A stretch of 64,000 nucleotides of DNA from Aliarcobacter cryaerophilus (GTDB lineage Bacteria > Campylobacterota > Campylobacteria > Campylobacterales > Arcobacteraceae), in contig NZ_CP060694.1 of the NCBI RefSeq assembly GCF_014352935.1, positions 1,116,001 through 1,180,000 of the forward strand, written 5' to 3'. Below, piece by piece: positions 40,835 through 54,866 of this stretch. The notes under the pieces were generated by a model that was not told where the DNA came from, did no database searches, and saw only the letters and a program-made list of their open reading frames with translations. The translations under genes and the position numbers were made by a program. How positions within the stretch are numbered: position 1 is the stretch's first letter; the number at the start of each line of letters is the position of its first letter.

Positions 40835-42495
40835 ATGTTAAAAATATTTAAGTTTTCTCTTTTATTTACGCTTAGTCTAAATCTTTTTGCAAATAGTATA
40901 ACTACTGATTTTATGCAAAAAGATTTCAAAATAACTTATGAATGGCTTGCAGAAAAACCAAAATCAAGTGCTAAAGATTTTTTTATATTACAATATCTTG
41001 AAAATGAAGATTTAAGTTATGAAAATGCAAAAAAAGCTTATGATATGAGGAATGGAAGAAATGCTCTTCTTGATAAAGCCTTTAAACAAAAATTCAATGA
41101 AAAAATATCTCCAGAAGATAGGTTTTGCTACAATGCTTCTATTTTAGAACTTAAAAATAGCGATTCAAGATGTATTGCTCTTGGTTTAGCTTCACTCAAA
41201 AAAGCATCTGACTTATCAAAAGAGGATCTTACTTTTTTTATATCAAAGCTTGATATTTACCCTACTTTAAAAAATAATCTTATACTTATATCATCAAATG
41301 ATATTTATAAAAAACTTATAAATGGCTCTACTGATAAATTTTTAGAAATTTTTTTGAAGTTAGTGATACATATAGATATAAATATTTAAATCAATCTATA
41401 AATCCAACTTTTTTACATAAAATTGCTATGCATAAAGATTTTGAAAAATTTTTACGAACAGTTGTTTATGATAAAAAATTAAAAAATATACAAAAATCTC
41501 TTGATAATCTAAAAACTGAAAGAATGTTAACAACAAATCTTCAATTTTTATTAGGTATCAATGCTGTAAATAATCGTAAATTAGAGAGTGCAAAGCAGTT
41601 TTTTCAAAACTCTTATGATATAGCACTTTTAAGAGGTGATAAAGATAGAGCAATCTTTTGGCTATATTTACTATCAAAAAACACTATTTATCTTGAAGAA
41701 TTAGCAAAAAGTTTTGAGGCAAATATCTACTCTTTATATGCAAAAGAGCTTTTAAATATAACTCCAGATAATCTAGTTTTCAAAATTGATATGAAAATAA
41801 AACCTAGTTCTTATGATATTTATGATGCTTTTAGCTGGTTGGAAGTTACAGAAGATAGCAAAAAAAATTTAGATGATGCAAAGATGGAAAAATATTCAAA
41901 TCTTTTTACTCAAAAAAGTATGGAACCACATTTAGCTTTTATTCTTGAAAGATATAATAGATTTAAAAATCAATATTTTATAACTCCTTATGAGGATTTA
42001 TTAAACAATTATGGAATATATAAAAAAGTTTTAATCTACTCTATTGCAAAACAAGAAAGTAGATTTATTCCATCTTCAATCTCATTTTCAAGTGCCATGG
42101 GAATAATGCAAATTATGCCATTTTTATCAAAAGATATAGCAAGTAAGTTAGGTGATGATTACAATATTTATGATCAATTTTTACCTGAAAAAAATATACA
42201 ATATGCAAGTTTTCATCTTGACTCATTAATTAAACAATTCGATAGTAATCCTCTTTTTATCGCCTATGCTTACAATGGTGGAGCTGGATATGCTAGAAGT
42301 CAATTGCAAAAAGGTTTGTTTAAAGATAAATCAGAGTTTGAACCATTTTTAAGCATGGAGATGATTTCATATAATGAAACAAGAGAGTATGGAAAAAAAG
42401 TTTTAGCTAATTTTTATATATACAACAACTATTTAAATAGTGAGAATAAAATCTCACTATCTTCTATTTTTCAAAATTTAGTGTGGCATCACTAG
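40835..42495 (+). pseudogene. Soluble lytic transglycosylase (Slt), frameshifted at a T7 run
   Basis: Two frames together make one Slt. The first (40835-41389) has a signal peptide (KIFKFSLLFTLSLNLFA) and helical superhelix; the second (continuing to 42495) has the rest and the GEWL-like catalytic domain, with the Glu in IAKQESRFIPSS and AMGIMQIMPF. At 41345 GAA-ATT-TTT-TTG in T7 (41349-41355), a -1 shift gives FFEVSDTYRYKYLNQS and joins the halves with nothing lost. So there is one T too few for a straight frame, or the ribosome slips. Slt cuts glycan strands in the periplasm. Neighbours (gltX, yggT, lipoprotein, mobB) are as in C. jejuni. Confidence 0.86.
42439..42458 (-). terminator. Hairpin downstream of the lipoprotein gene
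   Basis: AGTGAGA (42439-42445) and TCTCACT (42452-42458) form a perfect 7-base stem with six-base loop, ending six bases beyond the stop of the minus-strand lipoprotein gene. It lies inside the end of slt. There is no clean T-run, so the role as terminator is tentative. Confidence 0.4.
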
Positions 42496-43543: not shown

Positions 43544-44386
43544 ATGCAAGAGATAATAAAAGCAATAGAAGAAGCAAGTATAAAAATAAGACATCTAATA
43601 GAGACAGGTGATACTGGAAAATCTCAAAGCGAAAATAGTACAGGAGATACTCAACTTAAACTAGATATTCAAAGTGATGAGATAATTGAAGAGATTTTTT
43701 CAAAACTTTCAAGTGTAAAAGCAATAGTTAGTGAAGAGCAAGATAGTATAAAAAATATAAATGAAACTGGTGAATATTTAATAGCTTACGATCCACTAGA
43801 TGGTTCATCTTTAGTTGATGTAAACTTAAGTGTTGGTTCAATTTATGGAATATATAAAAATGAATTCAATGCAAAAAATATAATAGCTTCTATTTATGTA
43901 GTTTTTGGCCCAAGAGTTGAGATGGTTGTAACTACAAGTGATGTTAAAATGTACAGACTTTTAAATGGAGAGTTTAAATTTATTCAAAATATTAAACTTA
44001 ATGAAAAAGGTAAATTAAATGCTCCTGGTTCTACTCAAAACTGCTGGGCTCCTTTTCATAAAAAGCTAATTGATGATATTTTTAATGATGGATATAGACT
44101 AAGATACAGTGGTGGAATGGTTCCTGACTTACATCAAATTTTACTAAAAGGTGGTGGACTTTTCTCTTATCCAGGAACTACTGATAGACCAAAAGGGAAA
44201 TTAAGACAACTTTTTGAAGTTTTTCCTTTTGCATTAGCTTTTGAAAAAGCTGGAGGAGCTGCTGTTGATGGAGAAAAGAGAGTTTTAGAAGTTCCTACAA
44301 CTCATATTCATGATACAACTCCTTGTTTTTTTGGATCAAATATCGAAATAAACAGAGTTTTGGAAGTTTATAGTAAAAATGTCTAA
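43544..44386 (+). CDS. fbp: Fructose-1,6-bisphosphatase class I
   Basis: Gluconeogenic phosphatase. [20 protein letters not shown] holds the DPLDGSS metal and phosphate motif; [16 protein letters not shown] and [20 protein letters not shown] near the C-terminus bind substrate. 280 residues, shorter than enteric Fbp (about 330), as expected for this lineage. Directly follows mobB and overlaps the next small gene by eight bases. With pckA at 48415 it completes two key steps of gluconeogenesis in the window. Confidence 0.95.
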
Positions 44387-44582
44387 TGAAAATAAAGATT
44401 TAGACCAATGGGAAGAGAGACTTGAAGATATTTTACAAGAACTAAACTCTTGCCAAAACTCAAAAAATCTAAACTCTTGTAAACCTTGTGGTCAATTTTT
44501 TGAGTGTGTTTTAAGAAAAAAGTATGTAATAGCCGTTTATGAGTCAATGAATAAAGGCTCAAGCGGTGGATTTGAATTTTAA
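44379..44582 (+). CDS. Small conserved cysteine-containing protein (67 aa)
   Basis: A helical start ([20 protein letters not shown]), then [27 protein letters not shown]. Four cysteines (positions about 24, 33, 36 and 43) might form a metal or disulfide site. I recall a similar small gene between fbp and metG in C. jejuni (Cj0839c), with no known function. Overlaps fbp by eight bases and is followed by metG 15 bases on. Confidence 0.75.
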
Positions 44583-44597
44583 GAAAAAAGGTAGAAA

Positions 44598-46565
44598 ATG
44601 CAAAAAGAGTGTAAAAATGTTTATATAACAACTCCAATTTATTATGTAAATGATGTAGCACACATAGGTCATGCTTACACAACAATAATAGCTGATATGC
44701 TAGCAAGATACTCAAGATTAATTGGACATAATACATATTTATTAACAGGAACTGATGAACACGGACAAAAAATTGCTCAAAGTGCTGAAGCTAGAGGAAA
44801 AACTCCAAAAGAGTATGCAGATGAGATTTCTGGAAAATTTAGAGCGCTTTGGGATGATTTTGATATAACTTACGATAAATTTATTAGAACAACAGATGAA
44901 GAGCATAAAGTTGGTGTTCAACAAGCTTTTTTAAAGATGTATCAAAATCAAGATATTTACAAAGGTGAATATGAAGGTTTTTACTGTGTTCCTTGTGAGA
45001 CATTTTTTCCAGAATCTCAACTTGCAGATGGAGAGTTTTGTCCAGAGTGTGGTAGATCTACTATAGTTGTAAAAGAAGAAAGCTACTTTTTTAAATTATC
45101 AAAATATGAAGATAAACTTTTAAAATGGTATGAAGAGAATCCTGATTGCATATTACCAAGAGCTAAAAAAAATGAGATTGTAAATTTTGTAAAAAATGGT
45201 TTAAAAGATCTTTCAATTTCTAGAACATCTTTTGATTGGGGAGTTAAGCTTCCTGAATCTATGAATGAACCAAAACATGTTATGTATGTTTGGCTTGATG
45301 CACTTTTAAACTACACAACAGCTTTAGGATATGGAACGACTGAAAAAAATATGAATTTTTGGCCAGCAAATATTCATTTAGTTGGAAAAGATATTTTAAG
45401 GTTCCATGCTATTTATTGGCCAGCATTTTTAATGAGCTTAAATTTACCTCTACCAAAACATATTGCTGCTCATGGATGGTGGACTAGAGATGGTGAAAAA
45501 ATGAGTAAATCAAAAGGAAATGTAGTAAATCCAAAAGAGGTAGCAGATGCTTATGGATTAGATGCATTTAGATATTTCCTTTTAAGAGAAGTTCCTTTTG
45601 GGCAAGATGGAGATTTTTCACAAAAAGCACTACTAGATAGAATAAACTCTGATTTAGGAAATGATTTAGGAAATTTACTAAATAGAATTATGGGAATGAG
45701 TGGCAAATATTTTGACTTTAGTGTAAGCTCAAAAGATGTTCTTAAATTCCATAAAAAAGAGCTTAATGAAGTAAATAGTATTGTATCAACACTAGAAAAC
45801 TATATTTATAATATGCAAATAAATAGATACCTAGAAGAGATTTGGAAAATCTTAACTATTGGAAACAAAGCTATAAATGACTATGAACCATGGAATTTAA
45901 TAAAAGATGGTAAAAACGATGAAGCTATGGCTTTAGTTGCTCTAATTACAAACATTATGGCAAAAGTTGCTCTACTTCTTGATAGTGTAATGCCACATAA
46001 AATAAAAGATATTGCAACTTGTTTAGGTATTGAAATATCAACTCAAAATTATAATAAATTAATATTAAATAATGAACTTTTAAGTGATGTAAAAATAACA
46101 AAAATAGATGCCCTATTTCCAAGAGTTGAAGATATTTTACTAGCACAACCAGATGTTTCAGATATTACAGTTTTACAAAAAGATGAAAGTAAATATGAAT
46201 CAAAAGATGAGCCTGAAGCTCTTGATTTAGGAGATTTAAATCTTATAACTATTGATAAATTCTTTGAAACAACTATTAAAGTTGGAACTATCATAGAAGC
46301 TGTTGAAGTTCCAAAATCTTCAAAACTTCTAAAACTTCAAGTTGATTTAGGTGAAAATCGTCCAAGACAAGTTGTTGCGGGAATAAAAGAATTTTATAGT
46401 GCATCTGAACTTGTTGGAACTCAAGCTTGTGTTGTTGCAAACTTAAAACCTGCGAAATTAATGGGTCTTTTAAGTGAAGGTATGCTTTTAGCAGCAAAAG
46501 ATGAAAATGGATTAAGCCTAATAAGACCTGAAAAACCTAAAAAAATTGGTACAAAAATAAGCTAG
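44598..46565 (+). CDS. metG: Methionyl-tRNA synthetase
   Basis: Class I synthetase: TPIYYVNDVAHIGHAYTT (HIGH), a zinc region with CVPCETFF and CPECG, and EKMSKSKGN (KMSKS) near residue 297. The C-terminus FFETTIKVGTIIEAVEVPKS begins the EMAP-like tRNA-binding domain, which dimerises the enzyme. 655 residues. Preceded by AAAAAAGG. The stop TAG overlaps the next gene's GTG by one base. Confidence 0.96.
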   Translation: MQKECKNVYITTPIYYVNDVAHIGHAYTTIIADMLARYSRLIGHNTYLLTGTDEHGQKIAQSAEARGKTPKEYADEISGKFRALWDDFDITYDKFIRTTDEEHKVGVQQAFLKMYQNQDIYKGEYEGFYCVPCETFFPESQLADGEFCPECGRSTIVVKEESYFFKLSKYEDKLLKWYEENPDCILPRAKKNEIVNFVKNGLKDLSISRTSFDWGVKLPESMNEPKHVMYVWLDALLNYTTALGYGTTEKNMNFWPANIHLVGKDILRFHAIYWPAFLMSLNLPLPKHIAAHGWWTRDGEKMSKSKGNVVNPKEVADAYGLDAFRYFLLREVPFGQDGDFSQKALLDRINSDLGNDLGNLLNRIMGMSGKYFDFSVSSKDVLKFHKKELNEVNSIVSTLENYIYNMQINRYLEEIWKILTIGNKAINDYEPWNLIKDGKNDEAMALVALITNIMAKVALLLDSVMPHKIKDIATCLGIEISTQNYNKLILNNELLSDVKITKIDALFPRVEDILLAQPDVSDITVLQKDESKYESKDEPEALDLGDLNLITIDKFFETTIKVGTIIEAVEVPKSSKLLKLQVDLGENRPRQVVAGIKEFYSASELVGTQACVVANLKPAKLMGLLSEGMLLAAKDENGLSLIRPEKPKKIGTKIS

Positions 46566-52211: not shown

Positions 52212-53197
52212 CTACTCAAATGGCAAAATACTATTTTGCTCTTCATATTTTTTTAGTTTTTGAATTAGATTAATCTTTGCATCATCAAAGTTATTTGATG
52301 ATGCACCTTTTAATTCAATAGTTTTACTAGATAATTGTCTATTATTTTTATCTTTTACTTTAATATTTAAAATATTTTCAATAATAAAAAAACCAGATGG
52401 TCTAATCTTACTTTGATTTGAGCTCAAATCTATCTCATAAATATTTTCACTATCTTTCTTTTCTACAACTTTGTATGATTTTTTGTTTAAGCTATTTTTG
52501 AAAACTTCTTTAAAAATTTCTGAATTATCATCATTTTTTATAAAAAAACTTATTTTTGAAATACTGCTTTTTATCTCTTCTTCTATTTTTTGAATAGTTT
52601 TTATATACCTATTTTCGCTCTTATTTTTATTTTGTAAACTCTCTAAAAGTTCTGCTTTGTTCAGATTAATATAAAATTTTTCTAAAAGCTCTTTATATTT
52701 TATATTTTTACTCAAAATATCATCATTGCTTTTTTTTAAAATTTCATATTCATCATAAAGATTTGATATTTGAGTATTTAAACTATTTATTAAATCACTT
52801 TTTTTATACTAATCAAATAAAAAATATCTTTTTGAAAACTATAAAAATCCTCTATTTTATAATCTTTAAAAGTTAATTTTTCACTCTTTGTATTTATATT
52901 AAAAGTTGTAGTTTTAGAAACATACTCTCTATAATCTCTAAAAGATTTTAAACTTATCTCTTGATTTGATTGTATTGTTAGCATTAATCTTGAAGATAAA
53001 TCATCTAAAGCATTTAAAATAGCCTCTTGTTTTGTATTCGCAACTCCTACTCCATAAAGTATAATTCCCTCATTTAAAGGTGGGTTTAAGTACCAAGAAG
53101 GATATTTTAAAGAGTTATTTTGTGAAATTTCATCTTTGTTTATTCCAAAACAAGCTACAAAAAAAATTGAAAAAAATATAGGTAATAAATATTTCAT
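52212..53197 (-). pseudogene. Lpp20-type lipoprotein with coiled-coil tail, frameshifted at an A7 run
   Basis: The first frame (53197-52790) is a lipoprotein (YLLPIFFSIFFVACFG) with a Lpp20-like domain: YPSWYLNPPLNEGIILYGVG and KQEAILNALDDLSSRLML. On the minus strand it reads ATA-AAA-AAA-GTG and soon stops. A -1 shift at A7 (52799-52805) instead gives KKSDLINSLNTQISNLYDEY, which runs into the second frame (to 52212), a coiled coil and a beta-rich domain. Together they span 328 residues. Either one A is missing or the ribosome slips at A-AAA-AAA. It overlaps the CsgG-like gene by four bases. Confidence 0.8.
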
Positions 53198-54201
53198 TTT
53201 TCAGCTTCTATTTGATTGTTTAATCTATTTCTTTCTTCAATTCTCTGTTTTATTCTACTTATGGCTTCTATTACAGTTTTATTTGGTTTTAGTGTTAATT
53301 TATCAGATAAATCATAAAGTTCTTTTGCATTTTCATACTCTCCTAAACTCTCTTTTATAACACCTAAATTATACGAAGCAACATAACATTTATCATCTGT
53401 TGAATCCAAAAGTTTACTAAAAATCTCCATACTTCTATCTAACTCTCCAAGTTTCAAATACTCTAAACCATTTTCTAAAAGAAGATCTTGCTCTTTTGTA
53501 TATGAAATATCAGGTTCATCAAAAAGCTCTAAATAGTAACTTTGCTTTGTAGGAGCAATATATGGCAAAAATTCATCTACAATACTATTTGCAAATAGAT
53601 CATAAACAACATTTGCTTGAGGTAAACCACCGCTTTCATCTGAACATTTTTTATAACTTCTATTTCTTGTGTAATTATTTGTATATATTACATCACCTTT
53701 TTGTACATCAATCATTGAAATATTTGCTATTAATGAATACTTTGCATTTGTACAAGCTACTCTATACTCTTGTGTATATTGACATTTTCTATCAATACAT
53801 CTATATCTTGTTTCATAATAGTTATCTCTTTGTACATTTGCACTATCAATCTTTCCACTAATTAATGCTTGAGCACCTAAAAGTTCTCCTATTTCAACAC
53901 TGTTTGTTTTATTTGCAAGTCCTGAATATTGAAATTTTTGTTCATTTAAAATATTTTCTCTATTATTTTTACTAATAACTGTAAAATATGATTTATCATC
54001 TACTTTTACACTATATATTGCCGATTCAATTTTTGTAGAAAGTCCTACATTGTCATTTTCAAACTTTAAAACTGCAATCTTTTTTGTATTTGAAGCTCTA
54101 TCAATAATAGCTGGTTTAGTACTATTTATAAGTACTTTTTGGCTACATCCAGAGATAAAAAAAACAACAAATATAAAAAAAAGTGATGATTTTAATCTCA
54201 T
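53194..54201 (-). CDS. CsgG/LpoB-like lipoprotein with C-terminal TPR
   Basis: Lipoprotein signal with FFISGCSQK. Residues about 40-230 resemble the CsgG family: KIAVLKFENDNVGLSTKIES, SVEIGELLGAQALISGKIDS and NISMIDVQKGDVIYTNNYT. A C-terminal TPR segment follows (LELGEL-type, YNLGVIKESLGEYENAKELY). Cysteines at YRCIDRKCQYTQEYRVAC may form disulfides. 335 residues. It does not carry the transmembrane pore hallmark of CsgG that I can tell, so LpoB-like activator is as likely. In the middle of the Lpp20 cluster. Confidence 0.82.
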   Translation of the reverse strand: MRLKSSLFFIFVVFFISGCSQKVLINSTKPAIIDRASNTKKIAVLKFENDNVGLSTKIESAIYSVKVDDKSYFTVISKNNRENILNEQKFQYSGLANKTNSVEIGELLGAQALISGKIDSANVQRDNYYETRYRCIDRKCQYTQEYRVACTNAKYSLIANISMIDVQKGDVIYTNNYTRNRSYKKCSDESGGLPQANVVYDLFANSIVDEFLPYIAPTKQSYYLELFDEPDISYTKEQDLLLENGLEYLKLGELDRSMEIFSKLLDSTDDKCYVASYNLGVIKESLGEYENAKELYDLSDKLTLKPNKTVIEAISRIKQRIEERNRLNNQIEAEK

Positions 54202-54326
54202 AATCCTCTTAAAGCCTCTTTTGCATTTTGCTGTTGAGTTTTTGTATCTATTAAAGTATTATCTTTTGAAGAACAAGCACTAAAAAATATTAATAAAAAA
54301 ATCAAAAAAATAGATAAATATTTCAT
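54198..54326 (-). CDS. Small lipoprotein (42 aa)
   Basis: The frame runs from ATG 54326 to TGA at 54198. The peptide is nearly all signal: KYLSIFLIFLLIFFSACSS with a lipobox Cys at 18, then 24 polar residues (QQQNAKEALRGL). AGGA lies close before the ATG, and the TGA overlaps the ATG of the CsgG-like gene, so the two are coupled. Mature form would be a 25-residue lipopeptide. Related lipoprotein operons carry small members like this. Confidence 0.72.
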   Translation of the reverse strand: MKYLSIFLIFLLIFFSACSSKDNTLIDTKTQQQNAKEALRGL

Positions 54327-54335
54327 ACTCTTTTC

Positions 54336-54866
54336 CTATATTTTATCTAAAGAATCTAGTGCTTTTTGAACTTCACTATTGATTGTTTTTTCTATATTTG
54401 CTTTTGGAATTGCAACTAAAATATATATAAAATTATCATTTGGATTTTCCCAAGAGCTTATTTGCTTTGACTCTTTTAAAGTCATAGATGAAGTTTGTCT
54501 TGATACCATAGTTACAACTCTTTCTATACTTTCACTCTCTTTTAATCCTGTTGAATTCATATAGCTTTCAACTCTGTTTTTCACTTCTAGTTCTATATCA
54601 TTTACTAAATTTGTTCTAGCATTTGCCAAAGCTTCTCTTCTGCTAAAATCATGCCCTAGTTTTGACATAGGAGCAGATCCAACTGCTACAAATCTGTTCT
54701 CTTCACTATAGTTCCCACAAGCCCAAAGCGGAGCTTTTGCTCCCGCAATTGTACATTCAGTTACAGCTATCTCATTTATATCTTGAGTTTTAGAACTACA
54801 AGAAACAAAAAAGATTGAAACTAAAGAGATAAAAAAGATAATTGAAGTTTTTTTAAAAATATACAT
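54336..54866 (-). CDS. Lpp20-family lipoprotein
   Basis: Signal IIFFISLVSIFFVSCSSK with lipobox Cys23. The mature part has the Lpp20 domain: APLWACGNYSEENRFVAVGS and REALANARTNLVNDIELEVK, a helix-strand pattern also seen in flagellar outer membrane protein FlgP. 176 residues. First gene of the cluster small lipoprotein-CsgG-like-Lpp20-like, which resembles H. pylori lpp20 (HP1454-HP1457) and C. jejuni Cj0089-Cj0092 from memory. Probably outer membrane. Confidence 0.85.
   Translation of the reverse strand: MYIFKKTSIIFFISLVSIFFVSCSSKTQDINEIAVTECTIAGAKAPLWACGNYSEENRFVAVGSAPMSKLGHDFSRREALANARTNLVNDIELEVKNRVESYMNSTGLKESESIERVVTMVSRQTSSMTLKESKQISSWENPNDNFIYILVAIPKANIEKTINSEVQKALDSLDKI

Follow-up and report, generated by a model that had tools for sequence, protein, structure and literature searches.

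An HP1454-like LPP20-domain lipoprotein gene of Aliarcobacter cryaerophilus interrupted at an A7 run: recoding site, real contraction or probable assembly miscount

In the stretch of 64,000 nucleotides analysed here (the window, G000:C1:1116001-1180000 of the source genome G000, a single contig of 2,020,388 bases), a reading frame on the minus strand begins like a lipoprotein and stops just after a run of seven adenines, and the same protein continues in the −1 frame. The locus raises the question of whether the two frames are joined during decoding, whether they are two genes, whether the isolate has lost a base, or whether the base is missing only from the assembled sequence. We conclude that the break is most likely not a real feature.

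The interrupted gene and its intact relatives

The frame opened by the ATG at 53197 (minus strand) ends ...ATT AGT ATA AAA AAA GTG ATT TAA, with its stop at 52792-52790. Past the A7 run, the −1 frame reads SDLINSLNTQISNLYDEY... and remains open until the stop at 52214-52212; a 167-aa ORF (52212-52715, with a TTG start at 52715) sits inside it. Direct reading confirmed the coordinates and letters given in an earlier note on this DNA; the frame from 53197 to 52790 has 135 aa and ends just past the run. The window contains about 177 A7/T7 runs per 100 kb, and the run itself is not special.

Table 1. Coordinates of the interrupted gene, its neighbours and the other loci discussed (window positions, or positions on the contig where G000:C1 is given)
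Feature	Coordinates	Strand	Remarks
Upstream open frame	52790..53197	-	135 aa; carries a lipoprotein-like signal, its Cys and an LPP20 domain (PF02169)
A7 run at frame break	52799..52805	-	eight bases in G025 and G023
Downstream frame, same protein continued	52212..52799	-	at least 194 aa; dN/dS 0.17-0.21 vs four relatives
CsgG/LpoB-like lipoprotein gene with TPR	53194..54201	-	upstream; its stop and the broken gene's start overlap
LPP20 lipoprotein gene	54336..54866	-	176 aa; same strand, upstream
SLT-domain transglycosylase gene	40835..42495	+	553 aa in relatives; T run 41349-41355 lacks one base present in G016 and G023
118-aa ORF	44383-44736	-	open here; a run of different length breaks it in G016; the run in the window is shorter
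murF	G000:C1:623786-625225		three one-base run losses within ~105 bases
pseG-looking gene	G000:C1:170617-171521		one-base A/T-run loss; no Pfam match at 1e-5
Histidine kinase	G000:C1:287099-288359		one-base A/T-run loss
Sensor-kinase-looking gene	G000:C1:707725-706260		loss seen vs G012; no Pfam match at 1e-5
YhdP-like gene	G000:C1:1098119-1101004		one-base A/T-run loss
23S rRNA copies with CCCC	G000:C1:142591-142611 and 564348-564368		

The upstream and downstream parts were each searched in 60 relatives (G000 counted among them), and an alignment of the nine intact copies was used to search 31 genomes of the genus (G000 included). The gene is present in 10 of the 31, in one frame in nine and in two pieces in G000. 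The nine intact copies are 317-345 aa long and free of stops, and that of the nearest relative has exactly 328 aa. Named relatives found through the gene are Aliarcobacter sp. MAG Gw_Bodden_bin_71, Arcobacter cryaerophilus gv. crypticus LMG 9065 and Aliarcobacter vitoriensis. The A run is one base longer (eight) in the two genomes nearest to G000, G025 and G023, whereas a G breaks it up in G016 and G012, where the gene is nevertheless intact; all four genomes read across the site in one frame. A search of phage records found nothing.

Since all nine other carriers keep a single open frame, the join of the two frames is no coincidence and one protein is intended, as the earlier note proposed when it postulated a product of 328 residues. 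The continuous gene that it suggested seeking among relatives was found in every other carrier, and two separate genes, the arrangement it set against this proposal, were found in none of the nine. The TTG at 52715 could in principle serve as the start of a second, abutting gene. However, the homology to relatives spans the junction, and the stretch from the A run to this TTG is also conserved in them. With one frame across the junction in the relatives, two abutting genes are ruled out, and we give this reading practically no credence.

The two halves are under similar constraint, with dN/dS against four relatives of 0.15-0.35 upstream and the values of Table 1 downstream. The break is therefore either recent or not real.

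The N-terminal part matches Pfam LPP20 (PF02169; residues 33-128, E 1.1e-8, 35.9 bits against a cut-off of 25.9). In the alignment, Cys16 follows a hydrophobic stretch, as in a putative lipobox, and is invariant in the nine relatives. The intact copy of G025 was modelled with a mean pLDDT of 78.8 and a pTM of 0.67, and the model is closest to PDB 4kzs (290 columns, E 6.7e-8), with a TM score of 0.61 by target length but only 0.48 by query and 13% identity in the structural match. A profile of the nine copies also finds 4kzs by sequence (E 7e-6), over profile positions 32-154 only. The gene thus resembles HP1454 of H. pylori (4kzs), an LPP20-domain protein, in structure and in profile sequence, and differs from it in that the C-terminal part has no sequence match to 4kzs. 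In the G025 model the break falls between the strand 124-132 and the helix 133-156; by this model a product of the short frame would lack the helices of 133-213 as well as the alpha/beta domain at the C terminus.

A published account describes HP1454 as a secreted protein of three domains, the first of them similar to HP1456, and reports interactions with FlgP and FapH from two-hybrid and pull-down assays, the meaning of which is unclear (PMC11756786). The same account places HP1454 in one operon with HP1456 (Lpp20), and here too an LPP20 gene lies close by. Across 52212-54866, the window holds three lipoprotein genes (LPP20, CsgG/LpoB-like with TPR, and HP1454-like), an arrangement that recalls the HP1456-HP1454 operon. 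"HP1454-like" is a better name for the gene than "two ORFs".

Programmed frameshifting at the A run

Programmed −1 ribosomal frameshifting at A-AAA-AAA, in the manner of dnaX, would yield a 135-aa and a 328-aa form. The heptamer (52805-52799) is in the right frame for this, and the −1 product is the protein of the relatives. The −1 frameshift site of E. coli dnaX is A_AAA_AAG, and the A run here lies in the same phase. The site is not conserved, however: the relatives have the long form alone, obtained by plain reading, and a G breaks the run in G016 and G012. The heptamer is also at background: among the 795 ORFs in 864 kb of G000 that reach 100 aa, 507 hold at least one of this kind, and the in-frame total of 896 is made up of 732 A-AAA-AAA and 164 A-AAA-AAG. 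Unlike in dnaX, there is no structure downstream; the 80 nt 3' of the run fold worse than their dinucleotide shuffles (MFE −4.6 against a mean of −7.07, z +1.13). No Shine-Dalgarno-like stimulator was noticed upstream when the sequence was read. The heptamer here is moreover A_AAA_AAA, and in E. coli A_AAA_AAG is much more shift-prone, according to a review (PMC5009743).

A background heptamer without conservation or downstream structure, in the weaker variant, means that the likeness to dnaX is due to chance. The same observations do not support the short and long forms suggested in the earlier note. On these three grounds (a common heptamer, an unconserved site and no structure after it) programmed frameshifting was rejected, and we regard it as scarcely plausible.

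Other breaks at runs in the source genome

The comparison with relatives was made for a sample of 864 kb of G000 (43% of the genome). Eight of 484 aligned G016 ORFs read as broken in this sample, and six were kept after two were discounted, their indels lying before the likely start (G000 1050647-1051565 and 1207076-1208073); the row 1206983-1208073 was dropped on the same ground in a follow-up comparison. All six kept breaks, this gene among them, are one-base losses in A/T runs. The other five affect the SLT-domain transglycosylase, a gene that we take to be pseG-like, the histidine kinase, murF and the YhdP-like gene. With the sensor-kinase-looking gene, six genes besides this one are broken by such losses.

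In the reverse comparison, one of 495 ORFs was broken in G016, the 118-aa ORF of Table 1, and this break is itself at a run where G000 is shorter. The pair G016/G012 gave 1/236 and 1/239, neither being one clean run loss, and G000 against G012 gave 1/166. The excess of 6/484 over 1/495 is modest (one-sided Fisher p 0.058). The MCP row 1211671-1212593 is ambiguous, as the same gene is broken in G012 too. An ORF flagged twice in the first comparison lies in an rRNA operon and was treated as rRNA; it is absent from the later count, probably because the sample by then included another intact 23S copy.

Gross undercalling of runs was not seen. We counted 746 A8 runs over the 2.02 Mb of G000 and 812 over about 2.1 Mb in G016, a frequency near that of relatives, and non-coding run-length differences are balanced (21 shorter against 25 longer in about 42 kb, few sites with weak power). 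Only a low error rate is therefore compatible with these counts, if error it is, affecting a handful of runs among many.

The break in murF is the most telling sign. Two of its three losses appear as gaps, and the third is hidden in a longer insertion, as judged from reading the alignment; residues are conserved in each successive frame. The usual start codons give frames of 122 and 247 aa only, and the latter begins past the ATP-binding loop. In three relatives murF is open over 479 codons. A search of G000 with a murF model found no second copy; the other matches reach at most 45 bits, against 154, and look like other Mur or FolC-kind ligases. Because MurF is essential for peptidoglycan synthesis, the assembled sequence is difficult to credit at murF. 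The 23S rRNA genes also differ among themselves: two of the five copies in G000 have CCCC, and the other three have CCC, as do 27 of 27 copies in six relatives. When the C-stretch pattern was sought in G023, there was no match.

These lesions also bear on the idea that the frame is really broken and is partly rescued by slippage of RNA polymerase or the ribosome on the A run. Rescue of frameshifted genes at long poly(A) runs is described for Buchnera and Blochmannia (PMC5009743), and the conserved downstream half fits such a rescue, although recency or error explains this conservation equally well. The review names runs of nine A or T for clear transcription slippage in bacteria, more than this run holds, and three lesions in murF would make rescue very inefficient. 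We consider this explanation very unlikely, and even taken together, all recoding or two-gene readings have only a slim chance.

Miscounted base or contracted run, and known precedents

We propose that the locus holds one ordinary gene, whose HP1454-like product is a lipoprotein of about 328 aa with an LPP20 domain, and that its A run was probably recorded one base too short in the assembly. The lost base would bring in a stop two codons on, and no decoding event would be required. Homopolymer miscounts are reported to split genes in assembled bacterial genomes (PMC6742220; PMC12007338; PMC8011154). The single frame in nine of nine carriers, the run one base short, the other A/T-run losses and the triple lesion of murF make an assembly miscount the probable cause of the apparent interruption. 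Against it stand the lack of any gross undercount, the modest excess of broken genes and the 23S difference, which is an extra base rather than a loss and is common to two copies. The error is best shown at murF, not at the A run of this gene; for that particular base, we infer an error rather than a mutation of the isolate.

The main rival is that the isolate itself has lost the base by slipped-strand contraction of the run, a recent and possibly reversible change after which it would make either a 135-aa lipoprotein with the LPP20 domain or nothing stable. The nearest relatives have an eight-base run at this site, and some of the other broken genes (the sensor kinases and the pseG-looking gene) belong to types that may be lost in laboratory stocks. 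C. jejuni offers a precedent: in fliR, a one-base deletion in an eight-base run broke the gene, and the change was reversible and common in the stock, at about 70% of its reads; indels in 7-8-base A/T runs were also found in flgS, flgR, flhB and fliP (PMC7677240). However, the same pattern recurs at three places in murF, where real losses would be lethal. In addition, every accepted break goes in one direction, the 23S copies disagree, and the downstream half has no sign of decay. We regard a real contraction as less likely than a miscount, though a substantial possibility. There is a small chance that the seven-base run is real and that, in cryaerophilus-group Aliarcobacter, a reversible A/T-run switch toggles between a 135-aa LPP20-only and a 328-aa HP1454-like lipoprotein, with the seven-base run as its OFF (or short-form) state.

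The case is mainly a warning, since an apparent recoding candidate is here better accounted for by a run that differs by a single base in the assembly. The signs at murF and in the 23S genes suggest consulting the reads for frameshifted genes of G000 before any of them is labelled a pseudogene or phase-variable.

The locus is like C. jejuni fliR, flgR and flgS (PMC7677240) in the eight-base A/T run of the relatives, in a broken copy that is one base shorter, and in belonging to a related bacterial class. It is unlike fliR in not being a gene of flagellar secretion, and in that the shorter allele was seen there in reads and reverted (PMC7677240), whereas the present one is known from the assembly sequence. 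An assembly miscount, the reading we prefer, would differ from published miscounts (PMC6742220) in that the error here is one that we infer. It would share with known assembly homopolymer miscounts the one-base error in an AT-rich coding run, the stop soon after it and the whole gene in relatives.
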